From: Micromonospora sp. NBC_01699
Lineage (GTDB): Bacteria > Actinomycetota > Actinomycetes > Mycobacteriales > Micromonosporaceae
Length of the DNA stretch: 64,000 bases
Reading direction: 5' to 3'
NCBI RefSeq assembly: GCF_036250065.1
Contig: NZ_CP109199.1
Span: 6,138,001-6,202,000 of the forward strand
The first letter of the stretch is position 1; each line of letters begins with the position of its first letter. Below the pieces are notes generated by a model. The model ran no database searches. It saw only the letters and a list, made by a program, of their open reading frames with translations, and had not been told where the DNA came from. This document shows, piece by piece, positions 40,523 to 49,136 of this stretch. The position numbers and the translations under genes are program-made.

Positions 40523-43500
40523 TCAGGGCTCGGCGAGCACGGTCTGGATCACCTGTACGCCGTCGCGGTGGCGGACGAGTGTGCCCCGGCCCGGTGGCAG
40601 CACGGTCGGCCGGACCGAGCCGAACACCGCCCCCTCCTCCCGATTGCCCGACATCAGCAGCCCCGGGCTCTCCAACTCGCGCAGCCGTTGCAGGACGGGT
40701 TCGTACTGGGCTCGGGCGACCCCGCTGACCCGGCGGGCCAGGATCAGGTGCAGGCCGATGTCGCGGGCCTGCGGCAACAGGTCGAGCAGGGCCGCCAGCG
40801 GGTTGCCACCGCCGGTCGCCACCAGGTCGTAGTCGTCGACCAGCAGGTACAGGTCCGGTCCCTGCCACCAGCTCCGGTCCCGGAGTTGGGCCGGGGTGAT
40901 GTCGGTTGCCGGCAGCCGCTCCTGCATCACCTTCCGGACCTGGTCCAGCACCTCGCTGAACGCCTGGTTGGACGAGGCGTAGTTGATCAGGTGCTCGCCC
41001 TCGACCGCCCGGAGCAGGCTGCGCCGGTAGTCGGCGATGACGATCCGCGCCTCGGCCGGGGTGTACCGCGCCGCGATGGTGCGGGCGATGTGCCGCAGCA
41101 GGTTGCTCTTGCCGCACTCGGCGTCGCCGAAGACGAGCAGGTGCGGGTCGACCGAGGGTTCGAGGTACACCGGGGCGAGGGCGGATTCGTTCACCCCGAT
41201 CGGCAGCCCCGGCCGGACCGGGTCGACCACCCGGGCCAGGTCCGCGACGGTGAGCGTACGCGGAAGCAGCCGTACCTTCGGCGCGGGTTGCCCCGGCCAA
41301 CCGTCCCGGATCCGGCGGGCGAGGGCGACGGTCGCCTCGGCCAGTCCACCGTCCCCGGAGCGGCCGTCGATCCGGGGTGCGGCGGCGACGAAGTGCAGCT
41401 TTTCGGCGCTCAGCCCGCGTCCGGGGCCGCCGGCCGACACGCTCCGCGCGGCCCGGCGGTCGATCTCCGAATCGGACGGGTCGGTCAGCCGCAGTTCCAG
41501 CCGGATGCCGAGCAGGTCGCGCAGCGCCGGCCGGAGCTCGGTCCACCGGACCGCGGTGAGCACGACGTGCACCCCGACGCCCGGCCCCCGGGCGGCGAGC
41601 AGGGCGATCGCCTGTTCCAGTTCCTCGTAGTCCTGGCGCAGGGCGCTCCAGCCGTCCGCGACGAGGAACAGGTCACCGAACGGGTCGTCCGGGAACTCGC
41701 CGGCCACCCGCCGCCGCCGGTACGCGCCGATCGAGTCAATGCCCAACCGGGCGAAACGGGCCTCACGCTCGTCGATCACCGCCTCCACCTCGGCGACGGT
41801 ACGGCGTACGGACTCGGGTTCGCGGCGGGTGGCGAGCCCGGACAGGTGGGGCAGCTCGGCCAGGTTGGCCAGCGAGCCGCCACCGAAGTCGAGGCAGAAG
41901 AACTGCACCTCACGGGGGGTGTGGGTGAGGGCGAGCCCGGCAATGATCGAGGCGACCAGGGTGCTCTTGCCGCTGCGCGGCGCGCCCACCACGGCGACGT
42001 TGCCGGCCGGGCGGGTGAGGTCGAGCAGCAGCCGGTCCTGCCGGTGCTCGCGGGGCAGGTCGACCATGCCCACCGGCACGGTCAGCGGTTCGCGTTCGAG
42101 CGCGCCCAGGCCGAGTCGCGCGTCGGTGACGAGTTCCATGAGCGAGTCGAGGCCGGGCGGGTCACCGAGCGGCGGCAGCCAGATCCGGTGGGCGGGCGGC
42201 CGGGCGTCGCGCAGCCGCCGGATCACCACGTCGAGGACGGTGGGGCCGAGCGGTTCGTCGTCCCCGGTCGGCGCCGTCCTGACCTGGTACGGGCCGGAGA
42301 CGTACCCCGCCCGGAAGCGGGTGAGCACGGTGTTGGCCTTGAGGTAGCCGTGACCGGGCGCGTTCGGCAGCTCGTACGCGTCGGCCACGCCGAGCACCGC
42401 CCGGCTCTCCGCCGAGGAGAAGGTACGCATTCCGATCCGGTACGACAGGTGGTTCTCCAGCCCGCGCAGCCGTCCCTCCTCGATCCGTTGGCTGGCCAGC
42501 AGCAGGTGCACCCCGAGCGCGCGGCCCATCCGTCCGATCCGGATGAACACCTCGACGAACTCCGGCCGGGCGCTGAGCAGTTCGGAGAACTCGTCGCAGA
42601 CAACCAGCACGGACGGCATCGGGGCGAGGGTGGGATTGGTCTGCCGGGTCCGGTCGTACTCCCACCGGCTGCCCAGGTGGCCGGCCGCACGGAGCATCTG
42701 CTGCCGGCGCTGTAGCTCACTTTCCAGCACGTCGGTCATCCGGTCGACCAGGGACAGGTCCTCGGCGAGGTGGGTGATCTGCGCGATGGTGTGCGGCAGC
42801 TCGCCCAGCGGGCCGAAGGTGGCCCCGCCCTTGTAGTCGATCAGGACGAAGTTCAGCTCCTCCGTCGTGTGCCGCATCGCCAGCGCCGCGACCAACGTAC
42901 GGAGCAGTTCGCTCTTGCCGGAGCCGGTGGCCCCGACGACCAGGCCGTGCGGCCCGTCGCCTTCCTGGGCGGCCTCCTTGATGTCGAGCAGCACCGGCTC
43001 GCCCTCGTCGTCGAGCCCGATCGGCACCCGCAGGTAGTCCGGCCCGACCGGGGTGCTGTCGCCGGTGAAGTCGGCCAGCACCGAGTAGTCCGGTATCCCG
43101 AGCACGGTCAGCACCTCGTCGGGTGGCGGGACCGGGTCGACCGGACCGTTGTTCGGCGGCACGAGCTCCCGCGGGCGGGCGCCTATCCCGCTCGGCATGG
43201 TCGGGCCGTCGACCACCACGAGGCCCGCCCATGCCTCGGCGATCGTCGACACCAGCGCCGCCGCGCCGTCCGGTGCTCCGTCGACGGGCTCGGCCTCGCC
43301 GTCGACCTCGCGCAGGCTCAGGTCGGGCAGGGCGATGCGGAAGGTCTGCCGACCGTGGACGGCCCAGCCGGGGACGTTGGCCGGCAGCCGGCCGGCGTGG
43401 TCGGGATTGACCAGTGACTCGTGCGGTTGGGTCAGCCGGGTCTCGATCCGCGACTGGGGCAGTTCGAGCAGTTCCTCGGGAATGGTCCGCCAGCTCCGGT

Positions 43501-44899
43501 CGAGCACGGCGACGTGGATCCCGTACCCCAGGCCCTTGTTGGCCAGTTCGGTGACCCTCGGCGTGAAGTCGTCGATCAGGGTGGCGAAGTCCTGCCAGCG
43601 ATCGACCACCAGGAAGACATCCGGGTACGGGCCGGAGTCGAGCGTGGCCCGCTTGGCGCGCAGGCTGGTGGGCGATTCCAGCTCGTGTTCGCGGAACAGC
43701 TGCTTGCGTCGCAGTACGTCGAGTTCGAGCCGGCCGAGCAGTTTGTCGACCTCGTCGACCTCGTCGTCGCCGACCACCGCCCGTACGTGTGGCAGCCGGC
43801 GCATCGGGCCGAGCCAGTTGCCGCCGGATTCGAGGCAGTAGAACGCCACCTCGCGGTCGGTGTGGGTGAGCGCGAGCCCGCCGATGATGCTGCGCAGCAG
43901 GGTGGTCTTGCCGGTGCCGGCGCGACCGACGAGCAGCAGGTGCCCCTCGGTGGAGGCGAGGTCGAGCCAGACCGGTTCACCGGCGGGTTGGTCGATCCGC
44001 TGAGCCTGTCCGATCGGCACCTTGAGCAGCCCGCGTCGGCGCCACTCGGTGGCGCACAGGGGTAGGTCGTCGCTGGGTTCGAGCGGGCCGAGCAGGTCGC
44101 CGAGGCGGACCTCCCGCTGGTCGCGGTGGCGGCGCTGCCGGTGGTGGCCGTCCCGGGACAGGGCGATGTGGATTTCGTCGCTGGCCCGGCCGAACTGGCA
44201 GGGTGACTGGTTCGGCGCCCGCTTCGGCAGTTCCAGCCGGACGTACCGCCAGAGGTCTTCCGGGGTGATCCGGCCGTTGCCGGTGATGTCGGCGGCCCCG
44301 GTGCTCAGGCCCTGGATGATCGTCTCGGTGAACGCGGACCGCAGCCGGGGGCTGATCTCGGTCGCCGGCCGACCGTCGTCGGCCCGTTCGACGGAGTTGG
44401 TGGCGGTGATGACATAGCGCCCGTTGCCGTTGCTCAGTCCCCCGTCGACGGGCTGCTCGTCGGTCGACTTGAGGCCCTCGGCGTCGAAGGCGCCGCTGTA
44501 GCAGCAGTCGAGCAGGATGACCGAGCCGGCCGTGTGGGAGTCGGCGAGCAGGTCGTGGATGAAGACGGAGGAGATGGCCGTCGACGACAGGGCGTCGAGC
44601 TCGGTGTTGGCGACCGCCAGGTAGAGCCGGCCCTGTCGGCCGCTGCGGATGCCGTGACCGGAGAAGTAGAGCAGGAACAGGTCTTCCGGCCCGACCGTAC
44701 GCAGCATGGTCTCGATCGCCCGCTCGACCGCGCTCTTGGACTCGTTCTCCAGCAGTACGGTGTGGTCGAACGCGCCGACGTCGGCGTCCGCCAGCAGACT
44801 GCGCAGGTCACGGGCCTCTTCGCGGGGCGAGTAGAGGTCCGCCAGCGACTCGTCGGTGTACCGGTCGTTGGCGATCAGCAGGGCGAGGCGCTGTCCCAT
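40523..44899 (-). CDS. Caspase-like protease fused to four FtsK/EccC-type ATPase modules
   Basis: 1458 residues in one uninterrupted frame, ATG at 44899, 6 nt after the EACC1 stop. Residues 1-250 are a caspase (peptidase C14) domain: YFSGHG with His82 and LLDCCYSG with Cys133 preceded by Asp131, followed by YVITATNSVERADDG. Four P-loops follow: GRAGTGKT (325-332), GATGSGKS (656-663), GAPRSGKS (972-979) and GDAECGKS (1258-1265). Only the second module has a standard Walker B (VVCDE, Glu770) plus LIDYKGGATFGPL, as in the active ATPase 1 of type VII EccC. The EccC membrane segments and stalk are absent. Predicted to be a soluble NTP-driven protease effector of a conflict system. Confidence 0.9.
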   Translation of the reverse strand: MGQRLALLIANDRYTDESLADLYSPREEARDLRSLLADADVGAFDHTVLLENESKSAVERAIETMLRTVGPEDLFLLYFSGHGIRSGRQGRLYLAVANTELDALSSTAISSVFIHDLLADSHTAGSVILLDCCYSGAFDAEGLKSTDEQPVDGGLSNGNGRYVITATNSVERADDGRPATEISPRLRSAFTETIIQGLSTGAADITGNGRITPEDLWRYVRLELPKRAPNQSPCQFGRASDEIHIALSRDGHHRQRRHRDQREVRLGDLLGPLEPSDDLPLCATEWRRRGLLKVPIGQAQRIDQPAGEPVWLDLASTEGHLLLVGRAGTGKTTLLRSIIGGLALTHTDREVAFYCLESGGNWLGPMRRLPHVRAVVGDDEVDEVDKLLGRLELDVLRRKQLFREHELESPTSLRAKRATLDSGPYPDVFLVVDRWQDFATLIDDFTPRVTELANKGLGYGIHVAVLDRSWRTIPEELLELPQSRIETRLTQPHESLVNPDHAGRLPANVPGWAVHGRQTFRIALPDLSLREVDGEAEPVDGAPDGAAALVSTIAEAWAGLVVVDGPTMPSGIGARPRELVPPNNGPVDPVPPPDEVLTVLGIPDYSVLADFTGDSTPVGPDYLRVPIGLDDEGEPVLLDIKEAAQEGDGPHGLVVGATGSGKSELLRTLVAALAMRHTTEELNFVLIDYKGGATFGPLGELPHTIAQITHLAEDLSLVDRMTDVLESELQRRQQMLRAAGHLGSRWEYDRTRQTNPTLAPMPSVLVVCDEFSELLSARPEFVEVFIRIGRMGRALGVHLLLASQRIEEGRLRGLENHLSYRIGMRTFSSAESRAVLGVADAYELPNAPGHGYLKANTVLTRFRAGYVSGPYQVRTAPTGDDEPLGPTVLDVVIRRLRDARPPAHRIWLPPLGDPPGLDSLMELVTDARLGLGALEREPLTVPVGMVDLPREHRQDRLLLDLTRPAGNVAVVGAPRSGKSTLVASIIAGLALTHTPREVQFFCLDFGGGSLANLAELPHLSGLATRREPESVRRTVAEVEAVIDEREARFARLGIDSIGAYRRRRVAGEFPDDPFGDLFLVADGWSALRQDYEELEQAIALLAARGPGVGVHVVLTAVRWTELRPALRDLLGIRLELRLTDPSDSEIDRRAARSVSAGGPGRGLSAEKLHFVAAAPRIDGRSGDGGLAEATVALARRIRDGWPGQPAPKVRLLPRTLTVADLARVVDPVRPGLPIGVNESALAPVYLEPSVDPHLLVFGDAECGKSNLLRHIARTIAARYTPAEARIVIADYRRSLLRAVEGEHLINYASSNQAFSEVLDQVRKVMQERLPATDITPAQLRDRSWWQGPDLYLLVDDYDLVATGGGNPLAALLDLLPQARDIGLHLILARRVSGVARAQYEPVLQRLRELESPGLLMSGNREEGAVFGSVRPTVLPPGRGTLVRHRDGVQVIQTVLAEP

Positions 44900-44905
44900 G
44901 GCGGA

Positions 44906-45334
44906 TCAGCGGCCGTCGCCCTCGACCGCGCGCGGTGCCGCCCCGGCACCCGCACCTGCACCTGCACCCGCACGGAGGATCTGTTCCAGCAGGGCGGCCA
45001 CGGCGGGGTCGTCGAGCCGGGTCGAGCCGGTGATCTCGATTTCGATCTCGCCGCTGCGCAGCCGGACCGACCGCGCGTTGACCCGGCCGATGTACGCGAC
45101 GGCGACCTGGGCGAGGGCCCCGATGGTGGCGGCCGAGAAGACGCCGCTGACCACGAGCATGCCGAGTTCCCACACCTGGGGTGACTTGCCGGAGCCCACG
45201 GCGGTCGAGCGGGCGGGCTCGACCCGCAACCCGCGGACGGTACGGAGGTCCTCGGCGAGCCCGTGCGCGAGGGCGTCGAGGCGTTCGGCCGCGATGGGTG
45301 TGTGCGGTTCGATCGCGACGGCGACCTCGGACAT
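44906..45334 (-). CDS. EACC1 (effector-associated constant component 1) family protein
   Basis: 142 residues, ATG at 45334 with GGGAGG 5 nt upstream. Order of parts: N-terminal ferredoxin-like half with EVAVAIEPHTP and LAEDLRTVRGLRVEPAR, a hydrophobic helix at about 56-83 (LGMLVVSGVFSAATIGALAQVAVAY would span it), then RSVRLRSGEIEIEITGS and a C-terminal Ala/Gly repeat. This is the pattern I know for EACC1, a small membrane-linked component encoded beside variable effectors in actinobacterial NTP-dependent conflict systems. Its partner here is the caspase-ATPase protein, encoded 6 nt downstream. It likely tethers or senses for that effector. Confidence 0.82.
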   Translation of the reverse strand: MSEVAVAIEPHTPIAAERLDALAHGLAEDLRTVRGLRVEPARSTAVGSGKSPQVWELGMLVVSGVFSAATIGALAQVAVAYIGRVNARSVRLRSGEIEIEITGSTRLDDPAVAALLEQILRAGAGAGAGAGAAPRAVEGDGR

Positions 45335-45433
45335 CGAAACCTCCCACGGTTCGTACGCGTCTACATTCAACACCAGTCGGGCTCGTCCGTTCGGGTGACG
45401 TATGCCGGTTCGGCCGGTGCCCCCGGCGACGAC

Positions 45434-45479
45434 GCCGATCAAACTTTTGCAGCCGCGAGCAAAAGTTACGGCGATCGGC
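45434..45479. promoter_or_regulatory. Long inverted repeat in the EACC1 / glycan-gene divergent region
   Basis: AACTTTTGC (45442-45450) and GCAAAAGTT (45459-45467) are perfect 9-bp arms with an 8-nt loop. Outside them GCCGATC (45434-45440) pairs with GATCGGC (45473-45479). It lies 100-145 nt upstream of EACC1 and 172-217 nt upstream of the secreted protein gene, so it may regulate either. The rest of 45335-45650 shows no gene. Confidence 0.6.
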
Positions 45480-45650
45480 TCGAAAGACGTAGAGATTTCG
45501 ACAGTGGTCGATTACTGTGACGCCAACATCAGCGTGACGTATCGGCGAAGTACATCGTCGGCGTGGGTGGCCTCCGAGTCGGTGTCTCCGGGCCATCCGT
45601 CGACAGCGTCGCGTGAGGACCGTCCCGTCCCACCACGCCCAGGAGACACC

Positions 45651-48600
45651 ATGGACAGACGATGGCTTCGCCATGCCCTCGCAGTCGCCTCCCTCACCCT
45701 GCTCCTGCCCGCCACCCTGCCGTCCCCCGCGACGGCGAGCCCGAGCCGCGCCGCCGGCCCGGTCTCCGCGCTCGCCGTACCGCCGCAGGAACCCGGCGTC
45801 ACACTGCGCGTCTTCGACGTACAGGTGCCGCTGGAGGAGATCTGCGTACTCAAGCCGGGGCAGACCCCGAACGTCGACAGGCTGATGCCGACGATCAACT
45901 GGACCACCACCGCGGACTTCGGCGGGATCGCCGACAACTTCGTCACCCAGGTGATCGGCAATATCAACATCACCCAGCCGGGGGCGTACAACTTCCGCCT
46001 CTACAGCGACGACGGGTCACGGCTGACCATCGACAACACGGTGGTCATCGACCACGACGGCCTGCACGGCGCCAACCCGCCGGTGGACGGCACGGTCACC
46101 CTCACCGCGGGCTACCACTCGCTGCGCATCGACCACTTCGAACGCGGCGCCGACCAGCAGATCACCCTGCACTGGCAGCCGCCGGGCGCCTCGTCGTACG
46201 TGTTGGTGCCCAACTCGGCGCTCAGCACCGACTCGGGCGTCGTACGGGTGACCGCCCCCGGCCAGAAGCAGTGTGAGGCGAGCACCGACACCCCGGGCGA
46301 CGGGCTGCCGCTGACCGGTGTGCACCCGAGCTACAACCTGACCAACCTGCGCCCGAACGGCTTCCAGCCGCAGGTGACCGGGATGGACTTCTTCCCCGAC
46401 GGCCGGCTGGCGATCACCACCTGGGGCGGCACCGACAACCTGCTCGGCGAGGTCTGGATCCTGGGCAACACGACCGGCAACACCGGCCCCGGCCAGGTGA
46501 CCACCCAGCGGGTGGCGAGCGGGCTGCGCGAGCCGCAGGGCATCAAGATCGTGGACGGCAAGATCTACGTGTCGGAGAAGCACCGGCTGACCGAGCTGAA
46601 CGACACCAACGGCGACGGGGTGACCGACAACTACCGTACGGTCGCCACCTGGCCGTTCGGCGGCAACTTCCACGAGTTCGGCTTCGGTCTGCTCTACCAG
46701 GACGGGTTCTTCTACCTCAACCTCTCCGTCTCGATCAACCTGGGCGGCAACACCACCGACCCGCAGCCGGCCCCGAACCGGGGCACCACCATCAAGGTGA
46801 ACCGGACCACCGGCGCGGTGTCGTACGTCGCGGGCGGTCTGCGTACGCCGCACGGCATCGGCTGGGGTCCGGAGGGCGGCATCTTCGTCACCGACAACCA
46901 GGGCGGCTGGCTCCCGTCGTCGAAGCTGTTGCACGTCAAGCAGGACCGGTTCTTCAACCACTACATGAACCCGGCCGGCCCGTTCGACAACCGGCCGGCG
47001 ACCGCACCGGTGCTGTGGATGCCGCAGAACGAGATCGCCAACTCGCCGAGCACCCCGGTCTACCTGAACAACGGCACCTTCGCCGGCCAGATGCTGATCT
47101 CCGACGTCACGTACGGCGGGATTCAGCGGGCGTACCTGGAGAAGGTCAACGGTGAGTACCAGGGCGCCCTGTTCCGGCTGACCCAGGGTCTGGAGGCCGG
47201 TGTGACCGAGCTGACCCAGGGGCCGGACGGCGCGATCTACGCCGGCGGCCTGGGTGCGGGCGGCAACTGGGGCCAGGAGGGCAAGCTCAGCTACGGCTTG
47301 CAGAAGCTGACGCCGAACGCGACGAGCACGTTCGACATGCTGGCGATGCGGGCGACGGCCACCGGCTTCGAGGTGGAGTACACCCAGCCCCTGTCGGCGG
47401 CGACCGCGGCGGCGCTGGCCACCTCGTACAAGGTGCAGCAGTGGCGCTACGTCCCGACCGCCGCGTACGGCGGCCCGAAGGTCGACCTCCAGACGCTGTC
47501 GGTCGCGTCGGCGAACCTGTCGGCGGACGGCAAGAAGGTGACCCTGGTCATCAATGGTCTCCAGCCCGGTCGGGTGGTCTACCTCCGATCGCCCCAGCCG
47601 TTCACCTCGAACACCGGCCAGTCGCTGTGGAGCACCGAGGCGTGGTACACCCTGAATAACATCCCCGGCACCACCGCCCAGACGAACCTGGCGCTGGGTA
47701 GGCCGGCCACCGCCGACTCCTCGTGCAAGGCCGACGAGGGTCCGGCGAAGGCGGTCAACGGCAGCGTCACCGGCGGTGTGCTGGACAAGTGGTGCTCGAC
47801 CGGCACCGGCAAGTGGCTCCAGGTCGACCTGGGCCAGACCCAGTCGGTGAACCGCCTGGTGGTGCAGCACGCCGGGGCCGGTGGCGAACAGACCACCTGG
47901 AACACCCGCGACTTCACGCTCGCGACCAGCACGAACGGCACCACGTGGTCGACCGTCGCCACGGTCACCGGCAACACCGCCTCGACCACCACCCACAACA
48001 TCACCCCGGTCCAGGCCCGATACGTCCGGGTCAACATCACCGCGGGCGAGCAGGCCGGCAACACCGCCCGGATCTACGAATTCGAGGCGTACGGCGCCGC
48101 CGCACCGCCGCCGGCCACGAACCTGGCCCTGGGCAGGCCGGTGACCGCCGACTCCTCGTGCAACGCCGACGAGGGCCCGACGAAGGCGGTCAACGGCAGC
48201 GTCACCGGCGGCGGCACCGACAAGTGGTGCTCGCTGGGCGCGTCGAAGTGGCTCCAGGTCGACCTGGGCCAGAGCCAGACGGTGAGCCGCCTCGTGGTCG
48301 CGCACGCCGGCGCCGGGGCTGAAAACACCGCCTGGAACACCCGCGACTTCACGCTCGCGACCAGCACGAACGGCACCACCTGGACAACCGCCGCCACGGT
48401 CACCGGCAACACCGCCTCGACCACCACCCACAACATCACCCCGGTCCAGGCCCGATACGTCCGGCTGAACATCACCGCGCCGACCAGCACCACCGACAAC
48501 GCGGCCCGGATCTACGAATTCGAGGCGTACGGCACCGCCGCACCGCCGCCGACCCGGATCAACCTGTTCGACGGCACGAACCTGTCGAACTGGGAACACA

Positions 48601-49136
48601 CCAACGGCGCGGCGGCGACATGGCCGGTGGCGAACGGTTCGGCCGAGGTGCTCGGCGGGGACCTGCGGACCAAGCAGAGCTTCGGCGACTTCAAGCTGCA
48701 CGCCGAGTTCTGGATCCCGAACCTGCCGCCGGAGGTGACCGGTCAGGCGCGCGGCAACAGCGGCATCTACCTCCAGGACCGGTACGAGTTGCAGGTGCTG
48801 GACTCGTTCGGCGACACCACCCCGGCCGACAACGAGTGCGGCGGTTTCTACCAGAAGCGGGCCCCGGACAGTAACCGGGCGACCGCGCCGGAGACCTGGC
48901 AGACGTACGAGATCACGTTCCGGGCGGCCCGCTGGAACGGTGCCACCAAGACCGAGAACGCCCGGGTGACCGTGGTCTGGAACGGCGTCACCGTGCACAA
49001 CAACGTCGAGATCAACGGGTCGACCGGTGGCGGTGCCGCCGAGAGCCCGGCGATCGGCCCGATCAAACTCCAGGACCACGGCGACGCAGGCGCCAACGTC
49101 CGTTACCGCAACATCTGGATCGAGCCTCAGAGCTGA
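45651..49136 (+). CDS. Large secreted carbohydrate-active protein: PA14, beta-propeller, two F5/8C, DUF1080
   Basis: 1161 residues, ATG at 45651 with AGGAG 5 nt upstream. Sec signal in the first 32 residues (RHALAVASLTLLLPATL). Then a PA14 domain (about 50-200; YNFRLYSDDGSRLTIDN), a glucose/sorbosone-dehydrogenase-like beta-propeller (about 220-590; MDFFPDGRLAITTWGG), two discoidin F5/8-type C / CBM32 domains (about 680-820 and 825-965) and a C-terminal DUF1080/3-keto-disaccharide-hydrolase-like lectin domain (about 970-1161; LFDGTNLSNWEH, GNSGIYLQDRYELQVLDSFG). A modular extracellular protein for binding and probably cleaving or oxidising a polysaccharide. Confidence 0.88.
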   Translation: MDRRWLRHALAVASLTLLLPATLPSPATASPSRAAGPVSALAVPPQEPGVTLRVFDVQVPLEEICVLKPGQTPNVDRLMPTINWTTTADFGGIADNFVTQVIGNINITQPGAYNFRLYSDDGSRLTIDNTVVIDHDGLHGANPPVDGTVTLTAGYHSLRIDHFERGADQQITLHWQPPGASSYVLVPNSALSTDSGVVRVTAPGQKQCEASTDTPGDGLPLTGVHPSYNLTNLRPNGFQPQVTGMDFFPDGRLAITTWGGTDNLLGEVWILGNTTGNTGPGQVTTQRVASGLREPQGIKIVDGKIYVSEKHRLTELNDTNGDGVTDNYRTVATWPFGGNFHEFGFGLLYQDGFFYLNLSVSINLGGNTTDPQPAPNRGTTIKVNRTTGAVSYVAGGLRTPHGIGWGPEGGIFVTDNQGGWLPSSKLLHVKQDRFFNHYMNPAGPFDNRPATAPVLWMPQNEIANSPSTPVYLNNGTFAGQMLISDVTYGGIQRAYLEKVNGEYQGALFRLTQGLEAGVTELTQGPDGAIYAGGLGAGGNWGQEGKLSYGLQKLTPNATSTFDMLAMRATATGFEVEYTQPLSAATAAALATSYKVQQWRYVPTAAYGGPKVDLQTLSVASANLSADGKKVTLVINGLQPGRVVYLRSPQPFTSNTGQSLWSTEAWYTLNNIPGTTAQTNLALGRPATADSSCKADEGPAKAVNGSVTGGVLDKWCSTGTGKWLQVDLGQTQSVNRLVVQHAGAGGEQTTWNTRDFTLATSTNGTTWSTVATVTGNTASTTTHNITPVQARYVRVNITAGEQAGNTARIYEFEAYGAAAPPPATNLALGRPVTADSSCNADEGPTKAVNGSVTGGGTDKWCSLGASKWLQVDLGQSQTVSRLVVAHAGAGAENTAWNTRDFTLATSTNGTTWTTAATVTGNTASTTTHNITPVQARYVRLNITAPTSTTDNAARIYEFEAYGTAAPPPTRINLFDGTNLSNWEHTNGAAATWPVANGSAEVLGGDLRTKQSFGDFKLHAEFWIPNLPPEVTGQARGNSGIYLQDRYELQVLDSFGDTTPADNECGGFYQKRAPDSNRATAPETWQTYEITFRAARWNGATKTENARVTVVWNGVTVHNNVEINGSTGGGAAESPAIGPIKLQDHGDAGANVRYRNIWIEPQS
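47682..48557 (+). repeat. Tandem 435-nt duplication encoding the two F5/8C domains
   Basis: Copies at about 47682-48116 and 48117-48557. They are nearly identical over long stretches, including about 70 nt without a difference ending at 48029 and 48465. They diverge in short blocks. The identity at DNA level suggests a recent duplication or gene conversion. Confidence 0.85.

Follow-up and report, generated by a model that had tools for sequence, protein, structure and literature searches.

The gene pair on the minus strand of the window (the whole 64-kb stretch of DNA that was analysed) encodes a small EACC1-type protein and a caspase fused to four FtsK/EccC-type modules, an architecture that suggests a self-destruct switch wired to a secretion motor. 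Judged by its sequence the fusion is not an EccC, as its N-terminal half consists of the caspase and an additional module, D0, and the linker between modules D1 and D2 (linker 2) is shortened. The constant caspase-D0 core appears to have repeatedly exchanged its motor array with secretion EccCs. We read the pair as a two-gene EACC1-caspase conflict system in which the variable C-terminus would copy the motor of the type VII secretion system (T7SS) as four soluble modules, acting as a nucleotide-binding sensor scaffold that gates the caspase, and we give this reading about an even chance of being right.

Architecture of the fusion protein and its EACC1-type partner

Profile searches place a caspase and four FtsK/EccC-type modules in a 1458-aa minus-strand ORF (44899..40523), and a 142-aa minus-strand ORF (45334..44906) lies 6 nt 5' of it. 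A preliminary description of this DNA had reported an EACC1-like frame and a caspase-FtsK/EccC frame at this spacing; both ORFs were confirmed, and the His82 and Cys133 it had named are invariant in all 19 complete fusion loci. The features are as follows.

44906..45334, minus strand: EACC1-type partner of 142 aa, its predicted structure a small ferredoxin-like alpha/beta domain; directly 5' of the fusion in 19/19 fusion loci
44156..44899, minus strand: caspase domain, residues 1-248; profile hit over cut-off and modelled fold
44654..44656, minus strand: predicted catalytic His82 (SGHG), invariant in 19/19
44501..44503, minus strand: predicted catalytic Cys133 (LDCCYSG), invariant in 19/19; Asp131 is likewise invariant
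44105..44155, minus strand: caspase-D0 linker, residues 249-265; modelled as disordered at 251-261 and Arg-rich in the window lineage
43220..44104, minus strand: D0 module, residues 266-560; D2-like FtsK/EccC ATPase with intact Walker A, without the Walker-B Glu
42302..43054, minus strand: D1 module, residues 616-866; the sole module with a Walker-B DE
42182..42301, minus strand: shortened D1-D2 linker (linker 2), residues 867-906; its length was measured from 866 to 907
41315..42181, minus strand: D2 module, residues 907-1195; TIGR03925, with intact Walker A, without the Walker-B Glu
40532..41227, minus strand: D3 module, residues 1225-1456; homologue of the ATPase domain that binds the WXG100 signal

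The 1458-aa protein matches NF047832 ("caspase, EACC1-associated type") over residues 6-226 with 155.9 bits (cut-off 140) and exceeds the curated cut-offs of both the EccCb family (1055 bits, cut-off 346.6) and the EccCa family (556.9 bits, cut-off 509.2). In the profile check proposed with the preliminary description, the Peptidase_C14 and FtsK_SpoIIIE cut-offs were also passed, the 142-aa protein scored below the EACC1 threshold, and structure prediction gave a caspase fold for the N-terminal domain. A fusion with three ATPases was considered and rejected, as four modules are present. D3 scores 306.7 bits against the EccC of T. curvata in phmmer. The invariant Asp131 near the catalytic Cys presumably fits cleavage after basic residues, by analogy with orthocaspases. 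The linker at residues 249-265, which is Arg-rich in 11 of the 19 fusions, is a candidate self-processing site. Orthocaspases cleave after basic residues, as stated in a passage of PMC6426788.

Residues 1-560, the caspase and D0, stand in place of the N-terminal transmembrane (TM) helices and the DUF domain of EccC. The maximum 19-residue hydropathy is 1.23-1.76 in the 19 fusions, whereas the N-termini of EccCs mostly reach 1.7-2.7, and the two ranges overlap in part. Taken as the distance between the conserved ends of its two flanking modules, linker 2 spans 30-45 residues in 19/19 fusions compared with 70-110 residues in 68/68 EccC rows, which represent 65 genes as three are present twice (L030/L166, L033/L167, and L028/L169), whereas linker 3 is almost equal in both (44-51 residues in the fusions and 43-48 in EccC). 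Passages of four papers tie linker 2 to D1 autoinhibition and its release by substrates, or to substrate gating (PMC6954902, PMC8131196, PMC11370616, and PMC9765416). The short linker 2 and the missing membrane half of EccC together indicate that the array is freed from its usual anchor and latch.

The four P-loop lysines are invariant in the 19 fusions, as are both predicted catalytic residues of the caspase. Conservation of D1 bears on whether the array could be an active motor, namely an unfoldase or translocator that works as a hexamer and, in a ClpXP-like manner, delivers proteins to the caspase or pulls on it. Such a motor would agree with the D1 Walker A found in 19/19 fusions, with the D1 Walker-B Glu kept in 15/19, with a conserved S(Y/F)R..(L/M)(R/K) segment in D1, and with the hexameric nature of the EccC and FtsK motors, as described in part of PMC11154593. 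The catalytic Glu is, however, replaced by Gly in the remaining 4 of 19 (L106, L124, L125, and L127), a loss seen in 0/68 EccC rows, and the fusion has no clear membrane anchor. A caspase also lacks a closed chamber, and an active motor of this kind is in our view very unlikely. Among the roles that the preliminary description had offered for the array, sensor is the favoured one, and unfoldase or translocator is less supported because D1 alone keeps the Walker-B Glu, which some lineages have lost, and because of the missing anchor.

The 142-aa protein scores 20.7 bits against Pfam EACC1, below the cut-off of 23.6, and its gene is absent from the PF19953 matches listed in the whole-genome search. 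Pfam EACC1 matches 12 of the 19 homologous partner proteins at E<=0.1, the best of them at 1.2e-7. When a profile was built from the 19 partners, it detected EACC1-type genes immediately 5' of the caspase in 6/15 loci without an EccC array, the second caspase of the window genome among them. These two results make membership of the EACC1 family secure despite the subthreshold score. The gene lies immediately 5' and on the same strand in every fusion locus, at a distance of -8 to +17 nt in the 18 that were called automatically; in L111 it was missed by the gene caller, was read from the frame, and overlaps the start of the fusion.

The window genome's other EACC1-caspase (L010:1336-3291, in the G000:C1:1055324 region) is fused to a Cpn60/GroEL domain (PF00118, 1.8e-28) that is at best 40% identical to the resident GroEL-type genes. 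The Cpn60-caspase frames of congeners are longer (830 and 865 aa), so part of the chaperonin seems to be missing from this copy. The Cpn60 of the second pair is a further copy of host machinery.

Kaur et al. 2020 (PMC7159879) predicted by comparative genomics that EACC1-caspase pairs are conflict systems, and in their model the C-terminal part is an effector that is released by self-cleavage of the caspase once EACC1 senses a membrane signal. The identical gene order and architecture are consistent with this model, as is the disordered and often Arg-rich linker at residues 249-265. A single conserved TM helix was predicted for their EACC1, in contrast to the EACC1-type protein of the window, which is modelled as a probably soluble ferredoxin-like domain with no lone membrane helix in the model. 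Release of an effector is further disfavoured by an array that has neither obvious toxic activity nor a clear anchor, and whose sequence tracks secretion EccCs, which is a better fit for a recognition surface than for a weapon. We consider it unlikely that the model applies to this fusion.

Genomic setting and distribution

The queries, run at E<=1e-3, were nine proteins from a single ESX locus, and seven of these exceed the Pfam cut-off for EccB, EccD, EccE, WXG100, or subtilase. They gave no match in the 64-kb window, nor in 17 of the 18 other fusion loci, and as a positive control the same queries recovered EccD in 6/6, EccB in 5/6, EccE in 4/6, and WXG100 in 4/6 EccC loci. This bears out the earlier statement that no WXG100, EccB, EccD, or EccE gene is nearby and that the pair is not a secretion locus. 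As 17 of the other 18 loci are without ESX matches and the controls are positive, homologues are not found consistently inside T7SS loci. The assignment as a secretion locus was rejected on these negative searches and on the absence of EccC hallmarks. In the exception, L110 of genome G084, genes for a mycosin and for a WXG-type protein lie near the fusion, and an EccC D3 fragment is found about 20 kb from the fusion gene. Over L110 (the sequence of which contains 114 N) and L172 of the same genome, the T7SS pieces near the fusion comprise the mycosin, the WXG-type protein, EccE, and this D3-only fragment. Besides the EACC1-type gene, no family of called neighbours occurs in more than 4/19 loci, and those found in four are at varying positions or confined to one genus. 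The divergent neighbour in the window (45402-49136, plus strand) encodes a 1244-aa protein with PA14, F5/8 type C, and 3-keto-disaccharide hydrolase domains, and among the 19 fusion loci only L101 has a homologue of it.

Homologues were sought with residues 1-383 (the caspase and the start of D0), and a match had to reach at least position 374. In the family sample, 13/200 genomes have such full-reach matches; 25/200 match at E<=1e-40, and the other 12 matches end by position 259. The order sample has full-reach matches in 17/397 genomes, with 18 matching at E<=1e-45, one of them caspase-only, and the phylum sample has two in 396, both inside the order, together with a third match that is caspase-only. 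In total 22 different genomes carry the fusion. In three of them the frame runs into a contig end (L107, L128, and L129, left out), and the 19 complete loci come from seven genera, three families, and one order; L042 and L123 are the same locus, as are L043 and L106, and each was counted once. None of the 22 matching plasmid records covers 80% of caspase-D0; the 10 plasmid matches listed all lie mainly in the D0 part, with 8 annotated as EccC and 2 without annotation. Neither do any of the 4 matching phage records reach 80% of caspase-D0, and all 4, unannotated, match the D0 part only. Two phage records, MT836764.1 and MT835886.1, are unannotated "Bacteriophage sp." contigs from human faeces with an EccC-like module 29-33% identical to D0. 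Two large frames of 1564 and 1514 aa in another genome (G001:C1:643956-646304 and G001:C1:1088966-1091026) have 34-38% identity to the array.

Sequence exchange between the motor array and secretion EccCs

The D0 modules of the 19 fusions form one clade (SH-aLRT 99). By contrast, no single clade unites the fusions in D1, D2, or D3, where they nest with EccCs, with 7, 10, and 10 changes on the respective trees, of which at least 5, 6, and 7 are forced by well-supported branches. In single-domain AU tests one clade is rejected for D1 (p=1.4e-74) and D3 (p=7.3e-9). The near EccCs are often from the same genus or genome, as for L131 with L148 of its own genome and for L130, whose best match in D1 and D3, not in D2, is its own genome's L143. 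L109-L111 group with L139 of G068, L108 is placed beside a group that contains its own L141, and Micromonospora fusions are placed near Micromonospora EccC. Long branches (L108, L126, L127, L130, and L131) make single placements unsure, and the contrast between D0 and D1-D3 is not resting on them alone. From the EccC sets, 9/46 partial duplicates and 4/72 identical tails were left out, five rows out of 40 (L138, L140, L154, L155, and L165) were omitted as their best piece was too short for the filter, and 22 EccC rows were not taken into the domain trees.

DNA windows show mosaic tracts. The clearest cases are in G140, where the fusion and EccC share an identical run of 193 nt, and in G186 and G812, which have D1 tracts at 95-99%. 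In a shuffle test tracts were found with the EccC of the own genome in 3/6 genomes, and 7/42 different-genome pairs also reached <=10 of 2000 shuffles. Exchange between fusion and EccC is thus demonstrated. For conversion strictly inside one genome the demonstration is only partial, because tracts occur with the EccC of other genomes too. The different-genome tracts would also suit a passive history, in which the array, as a paralogue of EccC, trades sequence with it solely because the genes are alike and has no functional tie to secretion. A D3 signal pocket whose overall conservation is close to that expected from D3 identity would suit it as well. Against it, linker 2 is short in every fusion though the flanking domains are not one clade, and all four P-loops are intact; we regard such a history as highly improbable. 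Within D3 the signal pocket equals that of the nearest EccC in 7/19 fusions, and the window protein agrees at 5/10 positions.

The array and the caspase also differ in conservation between congeners, where D1, D2, and D3 are all less conserved than the caspase in 6/9 pairs. In the pair L126/L127 the caspase is 88% identical, compared with 56% for D1, 45% for D2, and 60% for D3, and their three EccC orthologue pairs are 93-100% identical; the array of this pair is fast-changing. The window and L101 share 85% identity in the caspase, 76% in D1, 79% in D2, and 88% in D3, with EccC orthologues at 98-100%. The other three of the nine pairs show no clear excess of change in the array over the caspase, the exceptions being D3 of window/L101, D1 of L109/L110 (equal), and D2 of L109/L111 (higher). 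The arrays of other lineages are 43-61% identical to that of the window, which makes a single ligand common to all of them unlikely.

A matching resident EccC type was judged present in 15/19 genomes, a count in which G158 and G134 are outside the trees and G433/G873 are weakly placed; no matching type was found in G000, G002, and G178, and G084 has a D3 fragment only. The fusion could also be an accessory of the T7SS that enters hetero-oligomers together with the resident EccC, so as to cleave the secretion system or to police it, as the arrays nest with EccCs that are often from the same genus or genome. Such a role would be hard to reconcile with the genomes lacking a full match, with the position of 18/19 fusion genes away from ESX genes, and with the replacement of the DUF domain by D0, and it seems quite unlikely.

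Proposed mechanism and relation to known systems

In the sensor scaffold that we favour, the array would bind nucleotide and, upon meeting its trigger, assemble as FtsK/EccC motors do. Most likely D3 would bind a ligand of T7SS type, or the trigger would be some agent engaging the resident motor. Assembly could bring the caspase domains together and activate them by proximity, perhaps with self-cleavage within the 249-265 linker, and the freed or clustered caspase would then cleave cell proteins, leading to growth stop or death. EACC1 may serve as a constant regulator or anchor. Hydrolysis by D1 may tune or reset the switch, and could not be essential in every lineage. Any role in phage defence or cell death is putative. 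The requirement of EsxB for EssC oligomerisation is disputed in part of Zoltner et al. (PMC4925161), which counts against the assembly model. Within the genus of the window itself the proposal of such a ligand is weak, considering the partial agreement of the D3 pocket and the lack of a matching EccC type in G000 and G002. For the variable part of this system, both the structure and the parent, which is the T7SS motor, are known. The known parent, the sequence exchange with it, and the clean signature of short linker 2 and D0 together lead to a specific, testable trigger, namely ESX-type ligands or an attack on the secretion motor. If this holds, bacterial caspases would be tied to the surveillance of type VII secretion.

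A broader, tentative reading, which we think possible but rather unlikely, is that EACC1-caspases are bacterial integrated-decoy receptors. Their C-termini would serve as bait by copying parts of the host, here the type VII secretion motor and, in the other pair of this genome, a chaperonin. Recombination with EccC genes would keep the bait up to date, and binding, blocking, or hijacking of the real motor would also trip the caspase. This would reverse the published view of the C-termini as effectors. A decoy should have its host counterpart in the same genome, and that is present in many lineages, with no matching type found in G000, G002, and G178.

Compared with the EccC of T7SS/ESX systems (TIGR03924/TIGR03925), the fusion is alike in the order and sequence of D1-D2-D3, in the Walker patterns, and in the relation of its D3 to the signal-binding domain, with identities to Micromonospora EccC of 74% (D3), 68% (D1), and 63% (D2). 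It is unlike EccC in that it has no TM/DUF half, has an extra D0, has lost most of linker 2, lies outside an ESX locus, and lacks the D1 Glu in 4/19. With "System 4" of Kaur, Burroughs, Iyer, and Aravind 2020 (PMC7159879) it shares the 5' EACC1 gene, the 3' gene for an N-terminal caspase with a variable C-terminus, and the actinobacterial host, and differs in that its C-terminus is a four-module EccC array. The main text of that paper names many C-terminal domains, with 0 occurrences of EccC, ESX, or type VII, and names FtsK domains for another system, as inactive. The preliminary description had rightly placed the pair in this published type, as indicated by the constant 5' EACC1 gene, the N-terminal caspase, and a C-terminus that varies (Cpn60 in the second pair). 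NF047832, which the fusion matches at residues 6-226, covers the caspase domain alone.

Among the matches listed from the openly licensed PMC literature, no paper deals with a caspase-EccC fusion. The EACC1-caspase two-gene type is already known; as far as the literature search reaches, what is new is an array of four modules, the lost linker 2, a D0 that is one clade next to D1-D3 that have been exchanged, and the hypothesis of a decoy. Three points also go beyond the preliminary description: the extra D0 module, the linker-2 loss, and an exchange between D1-D3 and secretion EccCs that has recurred. The integrated-decoy immune receptors of plants have a death-switch core that bears a copy of a host protein. 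They share the idea of this layout with the fusion and are different proteins, and a decoy function is hypothetical here; if it is true, the fusion would be a bacterial parallel to decoy-based immunity.
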